From: Halobacteriovorax marinus
GTDB lineage: Bacteria > Bdellovibrionota > Bacteriovoracia > Bacteriovoracales > Bacteriovoracaceae
Length of the DNA: 64,000 bases
Assembly (NCBI GenBank): GCA_002163155.1
Contig: MAAO01000006.1
Location: 62,001-126,000 of the forward strand
Direction: 5' to 3'
In this document: one piece after another, positions 26,768 to 55,392 of the stretch
How positions within the stretch are numbered: the stretch's first letter is position 1
Layout of the letters: the number at the start of each line of letters is the position of its first letter
Notes under the pieces: generated by a model
What the model saw: only the letters and a program-made list of their open reading frames with translations
What the model was told of the DNA's origin: nothing
The model's database searches: none
Made by a program: the position numbers and the translations under genes

Positions 26768-28282
26768 TTGAATGAATTGGAATTTCTTCATGATTCATAT
26801 AATAACGACGAAATTAAGACACAGTTACCTGAAATTTATCTGGTAGAAGATGATCTGATTTTTGGGAAAACTCTGAAAAAGTTTTTAGAGAAGAAATTGA
26901 GTATAACTGTCAATTACTTCAGTAGCCCAGCTCATGCTATTACGGCCATAGACGAAAGATCAGACTTTGGTCAGTTCATACTCATTACTGATATTAGTTT
27001 TGATGAGGGAGGCGCTGATGGGCTTCTCCTTATTGATCTACTCAAGGAGAAGGGTCATAAATTCATTCCTATAGTAATGACAGGTTTTGCCTCAATTGAA
27101 ACGGCCATTACAGCAACTAAGAAAGGTGTTTTTCATTATCTAACGAAGCCCTTTGAATTAGATGTTTTAACAGATCTAGTAATCAAAGCAGCTGTTTCGA
27201 AACTTGGTTATAAAGAAGAAGACTTCAAGGCAACAACTAGAGTTTCACTAAGTTCAAGAAGAGGTAATTCTTCAGAATATTATAAAATTGAAGCACCTAA
27301 TGAAGAAGATATGTTCTGTGGAATGATAGGACGATCTCCTAGAATGAAAAAAGTCTTTGAAAGAATTCAAAAGGTTGCCGCTTCCGATTCGACTGTTTTT
27401 ATAAATGGTCCATCAGGAACGGGGAAAGAATTGATTGCTATGGCGATCCATTCGCTATCTGCTAGAAATAATAATTCAATGATTTCTGTTAACTGTGGAG
27501 CTATTCCAGGTGAGCTTTTAGAGAGTGAATTATTTGGTCACGAGAAGGGCGCTTTTACTGGGGCCATATCTAGTCGCAAAGGTCGATTTGAATTAGCAGA
27601 TAAAGGTTCAATCTTTCTAGATGAAATTGGTGATATGCCACTTCTTCTTCAAGTTAAGCTTTTAAGAGTATTACAAGCTCGAGTTATAGAAAGGGTAGGT
27701 AGTACTAGTGTCACGCCTGTTGACGTAAGAATTATAACTGCGACACATAGAGAGCTAGAAAGACACGTCGAAGCGGGTGATTTTAGAGAAGATTTATATT
27801 ACAGGTTAAATGTTATACCAATAAAAGTTCCTTCTCTTTGTGAAAGAAGAGAAGATATTCCATTGCTCATTTCTTATTTCCTTTCTCGCTTTGTAAGTGC
27901 GGATGGAAGAAATAGTATTGAATTTGATGATGAAGCACTAGACCTTCTTTTAACTTATGATTGGCCAGGAAACGTTAGGGAGTTAGAAAACCTAATGGAG
28001 AGGTTAGTGATACTTAGAGGGGGTAGCATTATTAGAGCAAGTGATCTTCCAATAAAGCTCTTAGAAAGAGCTCCTCATTATATGAATTCATATGAAAGTC
28101 TAATTTCTCTGCCGGACAATGGTTTAAATTTAAAAATGGCCCTTTCAAATATTGAAGATTCTCTTATTCTTCAGGCCTTAGAAAAGACTTCGGGAAATAA
28201 GAATCAAGCCTCAAAGCTCCTTTCAATGAATAGAACTACACTTATTGAAAAAATGAAGAAGAAACAAATTCAATTCCAATAA
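26768..28282 (+). CDS. Sigma-54-dependent response regulator (NtrC family)
   Basis: This is a three-domain transcription activator. The receiver (about 22-145) has Asp28/Asp29 and phosphoacceptor Asp75 in ILITDISFD. The AAA+ domain carries Walker A GPSGTGKE, an intact GAFTGA loop that contacts sigma-54, Walker B SIFLDEIGDMP, and R-E-D-L-Y-Y-R-L-N-V. The C-terminal Fis-type helix-turn-helix contains NKNQASKLLSMNRTTL. The TTG start is fixed by AGGAG at 26757-26761, six bases upstream. Standing just ahead of the flagellar block, it is the probable activator of sigma-54 promoters there. The cognate kinase is not in the window. Confidence 0.93.
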   Translation: MNELEFLHDSYNNDEIKTQLPEIYLVEDDLIFGKTLKKFLEKKLSITVNYFSSPAHAITAIDERSDFGQFILITDISFDEGGADGLLLIDLLKEKGHKFIPIVMTGFASIETAITATKKGVFHYLTKPFELDVLTDLVIKAAVSKLGYKEEDFKATTRVSLSSRRGNSSEYYKIEAPNEEDMFCGMIGRSPRMKKVFERIQKVAASDSTVFINGPSGTGKELIAMAIHSLSARNNNSMISVNCGAIPGELLESELFGHEKGAFTGAISSRKGRFELADKGSIFLDEIGDMPLLLQVKLLRVLQARVIERVGSTSVTPVDVRIITATHRELERHVEAGDFREDLYYRLNVIPIKVPSLCERREDIPLLISYFLSRFVSADGRNSIEFDDEALDLLLTYDWPGNVRELENLMERLVILRGGSIIRASDLPIKLLERAPHYMNSYESLISLPDNGLNLKMALSNIEDSLILQALEKTSGNKNQASKLLSMNRTTLIEKMKKKQIQFQ

Positions 28283-28337: not shown

Positions 28338-28421
28338 GTGTAGTTTTTAGCTAGGGCATTATGCTCCCAGTCTGCTCTAAATGACTATTAATGCAATAGA
28401 TTCTACTGGTGTCAAAATAAT

Positions 28422-28455
28422 GGGCGGAAAAATTGTCCTATTGGAAAAATTTTCC
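28422..28455 (+). promoter_or_regulatory. Tandem imperfect palindromes, operator-like
   Basis: GGAAAAATTGTCC (28426-28438) and GGAAAAATTTTCC (28443-28455) are two near-identical dyads whose centres are 17 bases apart, about 100 bases before the TPR gene. A partial -24/-12 match (GGC then TTGT) overlaps the first copy. They may be binding sites for a regulator of the flagellar block. Confidence 0.4.
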
Positions 28456-28574
28456 TTTAAAAATTCTCAAAAAAGGGTAAAATAATCCTGTGTGATGGGA
28501 TTCAGTGTTTAGGATGAACATTTAATCAGACCAATCACGGTAGCATTAACTTGAAACAGGAAGTTTCTATCAGT

Positions 28575-31208
28575 ATGCAGCCTACTAAGCTCAAAATATT
28601 GACATTATTGATTCTATTCACAGTGCTAAATGTGAACGCGGGAATTATTTCTGAAGAGAAAGGATCAACTCACTTAAGATGGAACATCTTTACACCAAAA
28701 GATCTTGTTCAGATTCAAAAGAGAGAAGACAAGGTTTATCTAAAAACTTTGAATTCAGAATTATATGTAAAATTAGAAAATGCGATTAAAGAATTAGATC
28801 CAGATAAGTTATATATCACTTCTGTAAAAGCCATTGGGCCAACAGAAATGAGCAACTCTTCAAAAATTGAAATCCAATTAAAGTCAAAAGATGTCGAGCT
28901 ATTTAGTTTCTATAAAGAAAGAGATAAGAAGCTTGTTATAGATTTTTGGGTAGAAGAAAGTGAAGAAAAGTCAGTAACTACAAAGACAGTAGTGAAAAAA
29001 GTCGTTGCTCCAAAAGTTGCTAAGGTAAAAAAGAAAGTTACAGTAAAAAAGACTATTAAGAAAGTTAAGAAAATTGTGACTTCTAAATATAGGGACTTCA
29101 GATATGGTGCATCTTTCCTGTGGGATTATGCTCCGCTTGCACCGACCTTGAAGAAAGTTATTAACTTAGAAAGAAAGACTCCAGAGTATTTCTATACTGT
29201 AAAAAATAAAAAAGAAATAAAGAATGAGGCAGATGCTCATATGCAACTTACAATCAATCTCTTTAGAAAGAAGAAATGGGGATTGATGTATAAGTCTATT
29301 AAGCTCTATACAAAGAAATATGGTGATGAATTAGATGTTGATTTAAATGAATATATGAAAGCGAATGCTATTTTAAGAGAAAACTTTGCCAAGGGTAAAG
29401 TTGAGCCAGTTAAAATGAGTGTAAGCATGTTTGAAAATATCGTCCAGCAGAGTTCAAGGTATGACTTAAGAAGTGGAATATATAAGTACTTAATACCCTT
29501 TTATATTGGAGCAAATGATCATTTAAAAGCACTGGAATTATCAAAGAAATATTATGTAGATTCAAAAGAAAACTTTGATTACGAAGAATCTAACTATGCA
29601 GCAGAGGCTATCCTTTATAATCTCGCGAAAATGAAGCAAATAGAAAAAGTTCAAGAGCTTTTAAAAGAAAAGACAATTCAGAAAATCCTACCAAAGCAAG
29701 TTATGTTGGCTTATGAAATCTTTACTTATCTAAGTCTAGAGAAGTCTGAAGAGGTTATTAAGCTATACAAGAAGAGACGAGCAGGACTCGTGAAGCCTAT
29801 TCATCCCATTATCATTTATAATGTTGCAGAAGCATTCTTTAGAAATTCTAAGTATAATGAAGCAATAAAACTATATGATGAGTTTTTAAAGGATTACTCT
29901 TTCCATTCTCATAGCTCTCACGCAAGAATTAGAATCGCTCAGTGTTGGGAGATACAAGAAAAAGATTTTGGTGAATCAGTCAATCTATATAGAAATGCTA
30001 TAAATAGATCTCAGAATGCAGCAGTTAGTTATGAAGCTAGAATTAGATATGTAGCACTAAGAAATTTAAGAAAAAAGAAAGTGACTAGAGAAGATAGAGA
30101 AACTCAGGTCTTTTTAAATTCAGGTCTTAAGAAAAAAGATATGAATGCAAATTTACGTAAGACTCTTTGGTTAGTTAGACTTAGATCATTTATCGTAGAG
30201 AAAAAGTTTGAAGAGGCATTATCCTATTTAAATGCTCTTCCTTTAAAGTCGATGGTTCCAACGGATAGAAGAGTATTTGAAAGTGATGGAGCTGAAGTCG
30301 TTTATGGTTTGATTGAATCAAACTTTAACAAAAGTGAATATGCTCAGGCGATTAAGGTTTGGGAAATATATAAAGATAGATTTGTAGACAAAGTTGCTAA
30401 CGACCCACAAATGAATTTTCTCGTGGCAAATGCCTATATGAGATTAAATCTTATTGATGGGTTCGATAAGTTATATAGTAAGTTTTCAAAATCACAGCTT
30501 GAGATTTCTAAGACTTTTCCAATTTGGGTTAAAAGGTCAATGGAAACCGATAATCAGTCAATTCTTTCTGAACTTCAAATTATTAGAAATTTAAAGTTAA
30601 AAAATTGGAATGTAGTAAAAGAAGAAATCTCAAAAATAGCAAAAAGTAAAAAACCTTTAGAAAAGCTTGAATACTATAGAGGGGTTCTTTTTTATAAAAC
30701 AGGAGATTGGAGTGCCGCTGCTAAGTCTTTTGAAAAGTTTCTTTCAAGCGGTAATGACAAGTCGATTAAAGATCCAAAACAAATTGCAGATTTAGTGAAG
30801 GCTTATACTGATTGTCTTTATGAGCTAGGGGATACGGTAAAATATCAACGAGTGGCAGATGCCCTACTTGGAGATACTACAAGATTAAAGAAAAAAAATA
30901 AGTATATGGACTCAGTAAGAGAGAAAGTCTCTTATTTGAATATTGAATTATTGGCAGGTGATGATACTTCTAAGAGTTTTTTAATAATGGAAAAGAAGAT
31001 TAAAGATTTTAAGGCTGAATTTGAAAAATCTATTTATTCAGGAAGATTGAACTATTTGTTAGGTCTTTCATTATTAAGTAATAAAAGTATAGAAGAAGGT
31101 AAGAAAATCTTTGAAGAGCTTATTTCCCAGGAAGGGATTGATGAGCACATTAAGGATCTAGCTCGTAGTGAGCTGAGTATGTTGAAAATAAAAGAAAGAA
31201 CTTTATAA
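28575..31208 (+). CDS. Exported TPR-repeat protein with AMIN-like N-terminal domain
   Basis: The product of about 877 residues begins with a signal peptide (KILTLLILFTVLNVNA). A beta-rich N-terminal part ending in KKLVIDFWV resembles an AMIN or pilus-type secretin-binding fold. A Lys/Val/Thr-rich linker follows (VKKVVAPKVAKVKKKVTVK region). The rest is helical repeats of TPR/Sel1-like type, for example YNVAEAFFRNSKYNEAIKLY and YRGVLFYKTGDWSAAAKSFE. TTG 28551 is an alternative start eight codons earlier. It precedes the activator-like gene and flgB by short gaps, so an envelope or assembly role in the flagellar system is plausible but unproven. Confidence 0.7.
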   Translation: MQPTKLKILTLLILFTVLNVNAGIISEEKGSTHLRWNIFTPKDLVQIQKREDKVYLKTLNSELYVKLENAIKELDPDKLYITSVKAIGPTEMSNSSKIEIQLKSKDVELFSFYKERDKKLVIDFWVEESEEKSVTTKTVVKKVVAPKVAKVKKKVTVKKTIKKVKKIVTSKYRDFRYGASFLWDYAPLAPTLKKVINLERKTPEYFYTVKNKKEIKNEADAHMQLTINLFRKKKWGLMYKSIKLYTKKYGDELDVDLNEYMKANAILRENFAKGKVEPVKMSVSMFENIVQQSSRYDLRSGIYKYLIPFYIGANDHLKALELSKKYYVDSKENFDYEESNYAAEAILYNLAKMKQIEKVQELLKEKTIQKILPKQVMLAYEIFTYLSLEKSEEVIKLYKKRRAGLVKPIHPIIIYNVAEAFFRNSKYNEAIKLYDEFLKDYSFHSHSSHARIRIAQCWEIQEKDFGESVNLYRNAINRSQNAAVSYEARIRYVALRNLRKKKVTREDRETQVFLNSGLKKKDMNANLRKTLWLVRLRSFIVEKKFEEALSYLNALPLKSMVPTDRRVFESDGAEVVYGLIESNFNKSEYAQAIKVWEIYKDRFVDKVANDPQMNFLVANAYMRLNLIDGFDKLYSKFSKSQLEISKTFPIWVKRSMETDNQSILSELQIIRNLKLKNWNVVKEEISKIAKSKKPLEKLEYYRGVLFYKTGDWSAAAKSFEKFLSSGNDKSIKDPKQIADLVKAYTDCLYELGDTVKYQRVADALLGDTTRLKKKNKYMDSVREKVSYLNIELLAGDDTSKSFLIMEKKIKDFKAEFEKSIYSGRLNYLLGLSLLSNKSIEEGKKIFEELISQEGIDEHIKDLARSELSMLKIKERTL

Positions 31209-31249: not shown

Positions 31250-32179
31250 ATGGAATCAGTTAGAGTTGAGCTTTTTGGTAAAGACCCTAAGGTTACGAAA
31301 GCAATTTCAGTAGCAAGAAACATTTCAGTTACAAAAGCACCAGTGCTTGTAGTAGGTGAGACGGGAGTAGGGAAAAGGGCCTTAAGCCGTTATATCCACG
31401 CTAATTCTACTAGAGCAAATAACACATATATTTGTGTTGATTGTTCAGGAGATTCTCAAAGTGTTGAAAATGAAATTCTTGGCTTTAGAGAAGAAGAGTC
31501 AGGTAGATTCGTTAAAGGTGCACTCGAGGCAGCAAACGGAGGCTCAGTCGTATTTGCAAATGTAGACTGCCTAGAAGATGATTTTCAAAAGAGACTTCAC
31601 AAAATTTTAAATGAATTAGAAGATTATGATATTGATGTAAGAATCATCGCTACTACAACTAAGAATTTATCTAAGTTAGTTGGTTCTGGAAGATTTTATA
31701 GAGGTCTTTACACTTTCATATCTTCAAACGCCATTTCTCTTACTCCTTTAAGAGAAAGAGTATCTGACCTAGAAGAAATTGCACGTCACTTTGTACAAGA
31801 ATTTTCTGAAGACAAAGTTTCTGTAGACAGCACAGCAATGGACAAAATTCTTGGTCACTACTGGACTCATAATGTTAATGAGTTAAGAACAGTACTTGAG
31901 AATGCTCTTGAAAACAATTCAACAGGCATTCTAACTGAAGCTGATTTAGAAATCGGTGAAAAGAAAGCTGTAAGTATGATGAGTGATGATGATTCTGACG
32001 GAATCAGATTAATGTCTCTTAAAGAAGCTGAAAAACTTTTAATTAGGAAAGCTCTTATTCACACAAGTGAAAATAGAACTCAAGCTGCAAAGATCTTAGG
32101 AGTTTCTATTAGAACTTTAAGAAATAAAATTAATGAGTACCGTAATAATGGATCTGCTTATTTTGTAAATTTAAGATAA
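31250..32179 (+). CDS. Degenerate sigma-54 activator-like AAA+ protein with Fis-type HTH
   Basis: The 309-residue protein has the AAA+ and DNA-binding layout of sigma-54 activators but no receiver. Walker A is intact (VGETGVGKRAL). Two essential parts are not. The GAFTGA loop is replaced by the GFREEESGRF region, and Walker B lacks its Asp-Glu (SVVFANVDCL where LFLDEIGDM is expected). The C-terminal helix-turn-helix is good (NRTQAAKILGVSIRTLRNKI). ATG 31250 is fixed by AGGAGGT at 31240-31246. It probably binds DNA without activating sigma-54, perhaps as a co-regulator like FlbD/FleQ-type flagellar regulators. flgB follows 25 bases later. Confidence 0.8.
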   Translation: MESVRVELFGKDPKVTKAISVARNISVTKAPVLVVGETGVGKRALSRYIHANSTRANNTYICVDCSGDSQSVENEILGFREEESGRFVKGALEAANGGSVVFANVDCLEDDFQKRLHKILNELEDYDIDVRIIATTTKNLSKLVGSGRFYRGLYTFISSNAISLTPLRERVSDLEEIARHFVQEFSEDKVSVDSTAMDKILGHYWTHNVNELRTVLENALENNSTGILTEADLEIGEKKAVSMMSDDDSDGIRLMSLKEAEKLLIRKALIHTSENRTQAAKILGVSIRTLRNKINEYRNNGSAYFVNLR

Positions 32180-32204: not shown

Positions 32205-32609
32205 ATGAATCTAAATGACAAAACGATACAAGCACTGGCCTCATCACTAAACTTTAGGCAGATGAGACAAAAAATTATCACCTCAAATATAGCTAACGCG
32301 GATACGCCTGGTTATAAAACTAAGAGGATTGATTTTGAAGCTGCTCTGGCTCGTGCATTAGATGTCGATGGACAACAACAATTGAATACAGCAGATGGTG
32401 GTCACTTTGACGTAGGAAATGGTGGATTTGGAAATTTGAAGCCAGAAGTCTACGAAGATCCTAATGGGGTTGTGAGTGACGATGGAAATACTGTTGATCG
32501 AGATGCTGAGCTGGCAAAAATGGCTGAGAACAAGATTCTCTACGATGCTGCAGTTCAACTCTTGAATAAAAAAATTGGACTCATGAAATACGCAGTTGGT
32601 TCAAACTAA
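32205..32609 (+). CDS. flgB: Flagellar basal-body rod protein FlgB
   Basis: FlgB is the proximal rod subunit. The 134-residue product has the rod/hook N-terminal motif ANADTPGYKTKRIDFEAAL and a C-terminal helix ending in NKKIGLMKYAVG. ATG 32205 is preferred over TTG 32193 because GGAG at 32195-32198 is six bases upstream. It opens the tightly packed rod, MS-ring and export gene cluster; flgC follows after nine bases. Confidence 0.95.
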   Translation: MNLNDKTIQALASSLNFRQMRQKIITSNIANADTPGYKTKRIDFEAALARALDVDGQQQLNTADGGHFDVGNGGFGNLKPEVYEDPNGVVSDDGNTVDRDAELAKMAENKILYDAAVQLLNKKIGLMKYAVGSN

Positions 32610-33458: not shown

Positions 33459-33473
33459 TGGCATAGGATGTGC
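33459..33473 (+). promoter_or_regulatory. Sigma-54 (-24/-12) promoter before fliF
   Basis: TGGCAT, five bases and GTGC give the required GG-N10-GC (GG at 33460-33461, GC at 33472-33473). The expected transcription start is near 33485, just before the fliF ribosome site at 33488-33493. An almost identical element is present at 55377, which supports it. Confidence 0.5.
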
Positions 33474-55376: not shown

Positions 55377-55392
55377 TGGCATAGGGATTGCT
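55377..55392 (+). promoter_or_regulatory. Sigma-54 (-24/-12) promoter before the 89-aa exported protein
   Basis: TGGCAT, AGGGA and TTGC give a near-consensus sigma-54 element (GG-N10-GC; GG at 55378-55379, GC at 55390-55391). The expected start near 55403 leaves a leader of about 39 bases to ATG 55442. Confidence 0.65.

Follow-up and report, generated by a model that had tools for sequence, protein, structure and literature searches.

A probably ATPase-dead relative of sigma-54 activators encoded before flgB in Halobacteriovorax marinus, a candidate sigma-70-type regulator of its own early flagellar operon

The gene directly before flgB in the stretch of Halobacteriovorax marinus DNA analysed here (64,000 nucleotides, called the window below) encodes a receiverless relative of sigma-54 activators, which we call P_X. 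We propose that P_X is an ATPase-dead former sigma-54 activator that now serves as a sigma-70-type regulator of the early flagellar operon encoding it, and we regard this reading as rather probable. Its basis is comparative: alignment of orthologous proteins and loci established the losses in the protein, their fixation, purifying selection, a change of promoter and a shared DNA motif. The class of the operon promoter seems to have changed to match the losses in P_X, and P_X therefore appears to have been rewired, and not merely broken.

One operon with both intact and dead orthologues and with matched promoters would form a natural series leading from a sigma-54 activator to a sigma-70-type regulator. 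It makes testable the role of an AAA+ domain after loss of hydrolysis, and the joint change in class of a promoter and its activator. P_X is also a candidate for the top position in the control of motility in predatory bacteria. Little is known of flagellar regulation in these bacteria beyond FliA (for Bdellovibrio, PMC3627812), and we found no description of degenerate bEBPs from Bdellovibrio in the open-access literature.

P_X and its orthologues

P_X is a protein of 309 amino acids, and AGGAGG precedes its ATG at 31250. As the initial annotation had stated, flgB comes next; flgC, fliE and fliF follow it (Table 1). Pfam places a Sigma54_activat domain (PF00158; E 3e-22, 79 bits against a cut-off of 20) and a Fis-type helix-turn-helix (HTH_8; E 1e-9, 38 bits against a cut-off of 22) in P_X; it gives no Response_reg match, and the AAA+ domain starts near residue 9. 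Pfam and alignment agree with the annotation that GAFTGA and Walker B are lost, that Walker A and the Fis-type HTH are kept, and that there is no receiver. In the alignment, the GAFTGA loop falls on ESGRF, with the G and F kept, the A replaced by R, and TGA and its neighbors deleted, and the Walker B D-E position is A103-N104. The annotated list of losses was nevertheless incomplete, because both arginine fingers (now Y150 and F156) and the sensor II arginine (now N210) had been overlooked.

Table 1. Positions in the window of P_X, its motifs, neighboring genes and candidate regulatory sites
Feature	Position	Strand	Remarks
EBP_A, intact NtrC-type activator	26768..28282	+	Receiver, GAFTGA and Walker B; Pfam, alignment
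Remnant of TGTCAA-N4-TTGACA, TGTCAAAATAATGGGC	28410..28425	+	Only the left half good; 1.6 bits
Palindromic box 1, GGAAAAATTGTCC	28426..28438	+	About -58
Palindromic box 2, GGAAAAATTTTCC	28443..28455	+	About -41 from the inferred start
Sigma-70-like -10, TAAAAT	28478..28483	+	20 nt after CCTT of box 2, as in most loci of the family
TPR protein gene, conserved first gene of the operon	28551..31208	+	Likely ATG at 28575; ORF, profile match, synteny
P_X, receiverless sigma-54-activator relative	31250..32179	+	Without GAFTGA, Walker B, arginine fingers and sensor II Arg
Walker A, GETGVGK, residues 36-42	31355..31375	+	Kept; Lys in 60/60
Shortened loop 1, LGFREEESGRFVKG, in place of the GAFTGA loop	31478..31519	+	Alignment
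Walker B strand, SVVFANVD	31544..31567	+	Asp-Glu replaced by Ala-Asn
Former arginine fingers, YRGLYTF	31697..31717	+	Neither arginine left
Fis-type HTH, recognition helix LGVSIRTLRNKINEYR	32018..32140	+	Helix nearly invariant across the phylum
flgB, first flagellar gene downstream of P_X	32205..32609	+	Followed by flgC, fliE, fliF, fliG, fliH and fliI, to 38565

The same losses occur in every orthologue read from the order Bacteriovoracales. Among 60 distinct P_X rows from the window's family (f1), all 60 have the Walker A lysine and all 60 lack the T-G-A of GAFTGA, whereas the Walker B glutamate (mostly Asn), the arginine fingers and the sensor II arginine are each found in 0/60. Their loop 1 follows the consensus LG-x-R-[DE]-x-E-[ST]-G-[RK]-F. 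P_X is present in 119 of 129 genomes of the order, including all 73 near-complete ones, and its dN/dS, estimated from five congeneric species, is about 0.04, alike in the AAA+, lid and HTH parts, as expected of a protein that is maintained and not decaying. Losses common to all orthologues read, together with this presence and constraint, rule out a local mutation or a pseudogene. For the same reasons we find it scarcely credible that P_X is a relic in decay with no regulatory role: the catalytic residues are indeed all lost, but the gene is universal, every domain is constrained, the HTH is near-invariant, and P_X is retained even in genomes lacking FliG and FlgB.

Those genomes are five from two lineages in which the flagellum was lost, four of genus g32 (G035, G104, G105 and G106) and G031. 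All five lack a full FliG, and G031 yields no more than a weak 149-aa FliG_C match, of a short kind also seen in flagellated relatives. Rod genes and FlgB were not found in the flagellum-less genomes checked. P_X persists there, followed by a lone FliF-like protein, and it thus outlives most of the flagellum. The FliF-like genes (L136:3696-4997 and L138:918-2417, minus strand; L137:5663-6934, plus strand; L090:3503-5002, minus; L091:5927-7519, plus) encode a divergent protein with a Pfam YscJ_FliF N-terminus, possibly a leftover MS-ring protein.

An AlphaFold model of P_X (pLDDT 84) fits the AAA+ domains of PspF, FlrC, NtrC4, FleQ and VpsR with Z of 23-25, which argues that the AAA+ domain has been kept as a structure. 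Judged by what is established for bEBPs, P_X should be able to fold and perhaps to bind nucleotide, and it should neither hydrolyze ATP nor open E-sigma-54 complexes. The annotation's description of a DNA-binding, non-activating relative holds to this extent, in that sigma-54 activation by P_X is very probably impossible.

Elsewhere in the Bdellovibrionota, the gene preceding flgB encodes a receiverless bEBP of the same size as P_X, and the TPR-bEBP-flgB synteny is found throughout the phylum. The flgB-adjacent proteins form one clade (SH-aLRT 99), separate from other bEBPs, and the family f1 proteins form a clade (100) within it; P_X belongs there by synteny, by monophyly and by its IRTLRNK helix. 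The flgB-adjacent bEBP is intact in nine families (f3, f8, f11, f14, f15, f18, f19, f21 and f22); in f6 and f12 it is degenerate, and in f23 partly so. Since f12 is nested among the intact f8, f15 and f19 (98), and f23 among the intact f11 and f14, the motor appears to have been lost at least three times, that is, at least in f12, in f23 and in f1/f6, with f1 and f6 counted as one. The annotation had named intact orthologues as a sign of local mutation; such orthologues do exist outside family f1, where they represent the ancestral state, and there are none among the orthologues read inside it. They (L092, L095, L099, L168, L173 and others) resemble P_X in place, size and recognition helix but differ from it in keeping GAFTGA, Walker B, the arginine fingers and sensor II, and in having a sigma-54 promoter ahead. 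The recognition helix, LG[IV]SIRTLRNK[IL]NEYR, is almost equal in intact and dead members, and the DNA target was therefore probably kept through the loss of the motor.

Family f6, which we guess to be the Bdellovibrionaceae, combines both conditions. At four of its loci (L160, L161, L185 and L190) the flgB-adjacent bEBP lacks loop 1 and Walker B, and a sigma-54 promoter, TGGCACCGTATGTGCA, still stands before the bEBP operon at the two loci scanned. With a dead homologue and a sigma-54 promoter, the operon must there be served by another activator.

The promoter before the TPR-P_X-flgB operon

The usual gene order in genomes of the order is TPR gene, P_X, flgB, flgC, fliE and fliF. With each locus counted singly and kinship ignored, a sigma-54 site (TGGCA[CT]-N5-[TG]TGC[TA], at least 12 bits) lies ahead of this operon at 14 of the 16 loci whose bEBP is intact, at 0 of 56 loci of family f1 and at 0 of 2 loci of f12. 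The site is kept in f6 (2/2 loci) and in the partly degenerate f23, and promoter and protein are thus not strictly coupled. In f3, which has an intact bEBP, a sigma-54 promoter lies before flgB itself, as it does in f2, f7, f17, f20 and f24; none was found directly before flgB in family f1. The family f1 genomes searched have rpoN, with the exception of one assembly that is 67% complete, and exact sigma-54 sites number 12-39 per genome in the ten genomes counted (0-3 in the control). The persistence of rpoN and of these sites indicates that the absence of a sigma-54 site before this operon is specific. In the window, a minus-strand sigma-54 site at 33460 has two mismatches. A good match at 55377-55392, TGGCATAGGGATTGCT, recurs as an identical 16-mer at G000:C1:784830; we rejected it as a flagellar promoter because the gene downstream (55769) is MarR-like and non-flagellar.

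In place of the sigma-54 site, loci of family f1 have the conserved block TGTCAAAA... GGnAAAAAnnnCC-N4-[AG]GnAAAATTTTCCTT-N20-TAnAAT, which in the window spans 28410-28483. TAnAAT follows the box by exactly 20 nt at 33 of 45 non-redundant loci, by 21 nt at three more, and nearly nowhere else. Across 11 genomes, perfect or near-perfect copies of the composite lie solely before the TPR-P_X-flgB operon, and other promoters gave only two-mismatch matches, at about the control rate. We placed the transcription start 7 nt after TAAAAT, from the -10, which puts the two boxes at about -41 and -58 and the site upstream of them at about -72; the -35 is poor. If that start is right, all three would occupy classical places for activators of sigma-70 promoters. 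The conserved TAnAAT, the phased boxes and the lack of a sigma-54 site together suggest that this promoter is sigma-70-like.

The upstream site belongs to a palindrome, TGTCAA-N4-TTGACA, that was learned solely on families other than f1 (score 52, against 23-28 for shuffled sequence). At a threshold of at least 9 bits in family f1, it lies ahead of the TPR operon at 41% of loci (4% in shuffled sequence), ahead of the gene for the neighboring activator, EBP_A, at 52% (1.6%) and ahead of the flgF operon at 46% (7%); it was not found before flgB, flgC, fliF or P_X itself in this family. Its distance to the -10 in family f1 is 62-64 nt in 15 of 17 cases, whereas in other families its distance to the sigma-54 promoter is scattered from 74 to 310 nt. 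Orthologous loci of family f1 often have both halves, unlike the eroded copy in the window, which speaks against our reading and calls for caution. Because helix and site are both common across the phylum, we favor P_X over EBP_A as the candidate binder, the P_X helix having been compared across the phylum and EBP_A within family f1. EBP_A, whose HTH survives even where its AAA+ domain is lost, could instead be the binder of the palindrome.

Two other repeats near the start of the TPR gene were considered as operators. GAAAC-N5-GTTTC was rejected because it is the repeat around the ribosome-binding site of this gene: the SD lies between the arms of a perfect 5-bp inverted repeat, in its loop (GAAAC-AGGAA-GTTTC; 28553-28567, plus strand; GAAACAGGAAGTTTC). 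The repeat is exact at 24 of 51 family f1 loci, and translational control is possible. TCAAA-N2-TTTGA was set aside as a second operator since it sits within the first codons of the TPR gene. The element TCAAA[AT]TTTTGACA is conserved at the DNA level about 60-110 nt past the start of the TPR frame (e.g., at L050, L053 and L054) and encodes KILT. It could be a further binding site, and its place inside the coding start leaves a coding constraint as the other possibility.

Regulation of the operon and the role of EBP_A

We postulate that the ancestor of P_X was a receiverless sigma-54 activator encoded before flgB, in an operon with its own enhancer and sigma-54 promoter. In the ancestor of family f1, the loop that contacts sigma-54 would have been lost together with the entire ATPase cycle, while the P-loop and the AAA+ fold stayed and the recognition helix did not change. 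Alongside this, the sigma-54 promoter would have been replaced by one of sigma-70 type, whose operator palindromes have a fixed spacing. P_X may bind TGTCAA-N4-TTGACA at about -72, and possibly the GG-A/T-CC boxes at about -41 and -58, and may contact sigma-70 RNA polymerase as a nucleotide-bound, non-hydrolyzing oligomer, thereby switching on the early flagellar operon in which it is encoded. It probably also acts before EBP_A, and perhaps before flgF. EBP_A would in turn activate sigma-54 operons, flgF-flgG among them, and the outcome would be a FleQ/FlrA-like cascade whose top tier works without sigma-54.

That P_X activates, and does not repress, is inferred from the spacing; the sequence fits either. 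FlbD at fliF and TyrR at its repressed genes are precedents for repression, and P_X could be an autorepressor or timing brake that shuts the early flagellar genes off. The boxes lie about 22 nt upstream of the -10, P_X is itself a product of the operon, the DNA alone is compatible with such a role, and a motorless HTH protein suffices for it. However, a box at about -41 combined with a poor -35, and a site phased at about -72, are typical of sigma-70 activators and not of blocking sites, and a conserved P-loop and AAA+ domain (dN/dS 0.04) would be superfluous in a repressor. We consider autorepression rather unlikely.

EBP_A, the NtrC-type activator encoded two genes upstream of P_X, was correctly annotated as intact. 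The window's genome has a sigma-54 promoter before flgF-flgG (G000:C5:26629). Among relatives, such a promoter precedes flgF at 10 of 19 loci with EBP_A and at 0 of 10 without it (Fisher p 0.005, kinship ignored). Because the flgF promoter tracks EBP_A, EBP_A is likely the sigma-54 activator of later flagellar genes, in the flgF-flgG operon.

The annotation had suggested that P_X and this neighbor make up a paired system, in which P_X could be a co-repressor, anti-activator or hetero-oligomer partner. P_X would then form mixed rings with EBP_A, recruit it to DNA or block it, and FleQ and FleT of Rhodobacter sphaeroides are a precedent for two cooperating bEBPs. The two genes are neighbors at most loci, the palindrome also occurs before the sigma-54 flgF operon, and the degenerate P_X homologue beside a sigma-54 promoter in f6 calls for another activator there. 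The distribution of the two proteins weakens the suggestion, because EBP_A is missing or broken in six of the 73 near-complete genomes of the order (a full-strength orthologue is present in 67/73), all of which have P_X. P_X is unchanged where EBP_A lacks GAFTGA and Walker B (L058:835-2151, L067:651-2117 and L068:832-2145) or has lost its AAA+ domain and retains only the Fis-type HTH (L077:1416-1793 and L080:1573-1995). In addition, P_X lacks the parts that act between subunits, the arginine fingers and Walker B, and the operon promoter in family f1 looks sigma-70-like and has no sigma-54 site. A partnership with EBP_A is, we believe, distinctly improbable.

Extending the preferred reading of P_X as a sigma-70-type regulator, we speculate, with somewhat less than even confidence, that the early-flagellar master activator of this phylum repeatedly lost its sigma-54 motor. 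In family f1, one and the same gene, DNA site and operon would have passed from a position-flexible sigma-54 enhancer to position-locked sigma-70 control, and the dead AAA+ ring might serve as a nucleotide-bound scaffold or sensor that has outlived the flagellum in two lineages.

Relation to known regulators

FlbD, FleQ/FlrA and FlgR are flagellar regulators with the same fold as P_X. FleQ and FlrA keep their ATPase. The LFRS element of FleQ would sit in an N-terminal extension that P_X does not have, and because P_X begins at the AAA+ domain, such an element is unlikely in it. TyrR and PhhR are bEBP-like proteins that do not activate sigma-54 and act at sigma-70 promoters. TyrR has N-terminal sensory domains and aromatic ligands, whereas P_X starts directly at its AAA+ domain. 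NCBIfam places FlbD among the best matches of P_X (E 2e-44; NF050807 scores 152 bits, below its cut-off of 750). FlbD itself is reported to keep GAFTGA (PMC10274813).

The closest parallels are among bEBPs without GAFTGA. NtrC of Caulobacter and of Rhodobacter capsulatus lacks GAFTGA and is reported to act at sigma-70 promoters, and for the R. capsulatus protein ATP binding, and not hydrolysis, has been reported to matter (PMC10274813). P_X is like them in lacking GAFTGA and keeping the Fis-type HTH and Walker A. Unlike P_X, these NtrC proteins have a receiver and control nitrogen genes; unlike them, P_X also lacks Walker B, the arginine fingers and sensor II, and is encoded in a flagellar operon. 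Similarly, VpsR of Vibrio cholerae lacks GAFTGA and works with sigma-70 (PMC10274813). It is a non-hydrolyzing sigma-70 activator of the bEBP fold, and its AAA+ domain (7v2b) is near the P_X model (Z 23). In contrast to P_X, which lacks both a receiver and an N-terminal extension, VpsR carries a receiver-like domain and binds c-di-GMP.

GAFTGA-less bEBPs acting at sigma-70 promoters are thus already known from R. capsulatus and Caulobacter NtrC and from VpsR. What appears to be new is a flagellar, receiverless member with its ATPase residues lost and conserved throughout an order, along with orthologues in sister families that occupy this locus and are still intact, and what looks like a matching change of promoter class. 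The window's own genome encodes three further bEBP-like proteins without GAFTGA, L009, L011 and L012 (C1:283106, C13:527606 and C1:1199809), which also lack a normal Walker B; their N-terminal regions differ, being PilZ-like and GAF-like by eye.
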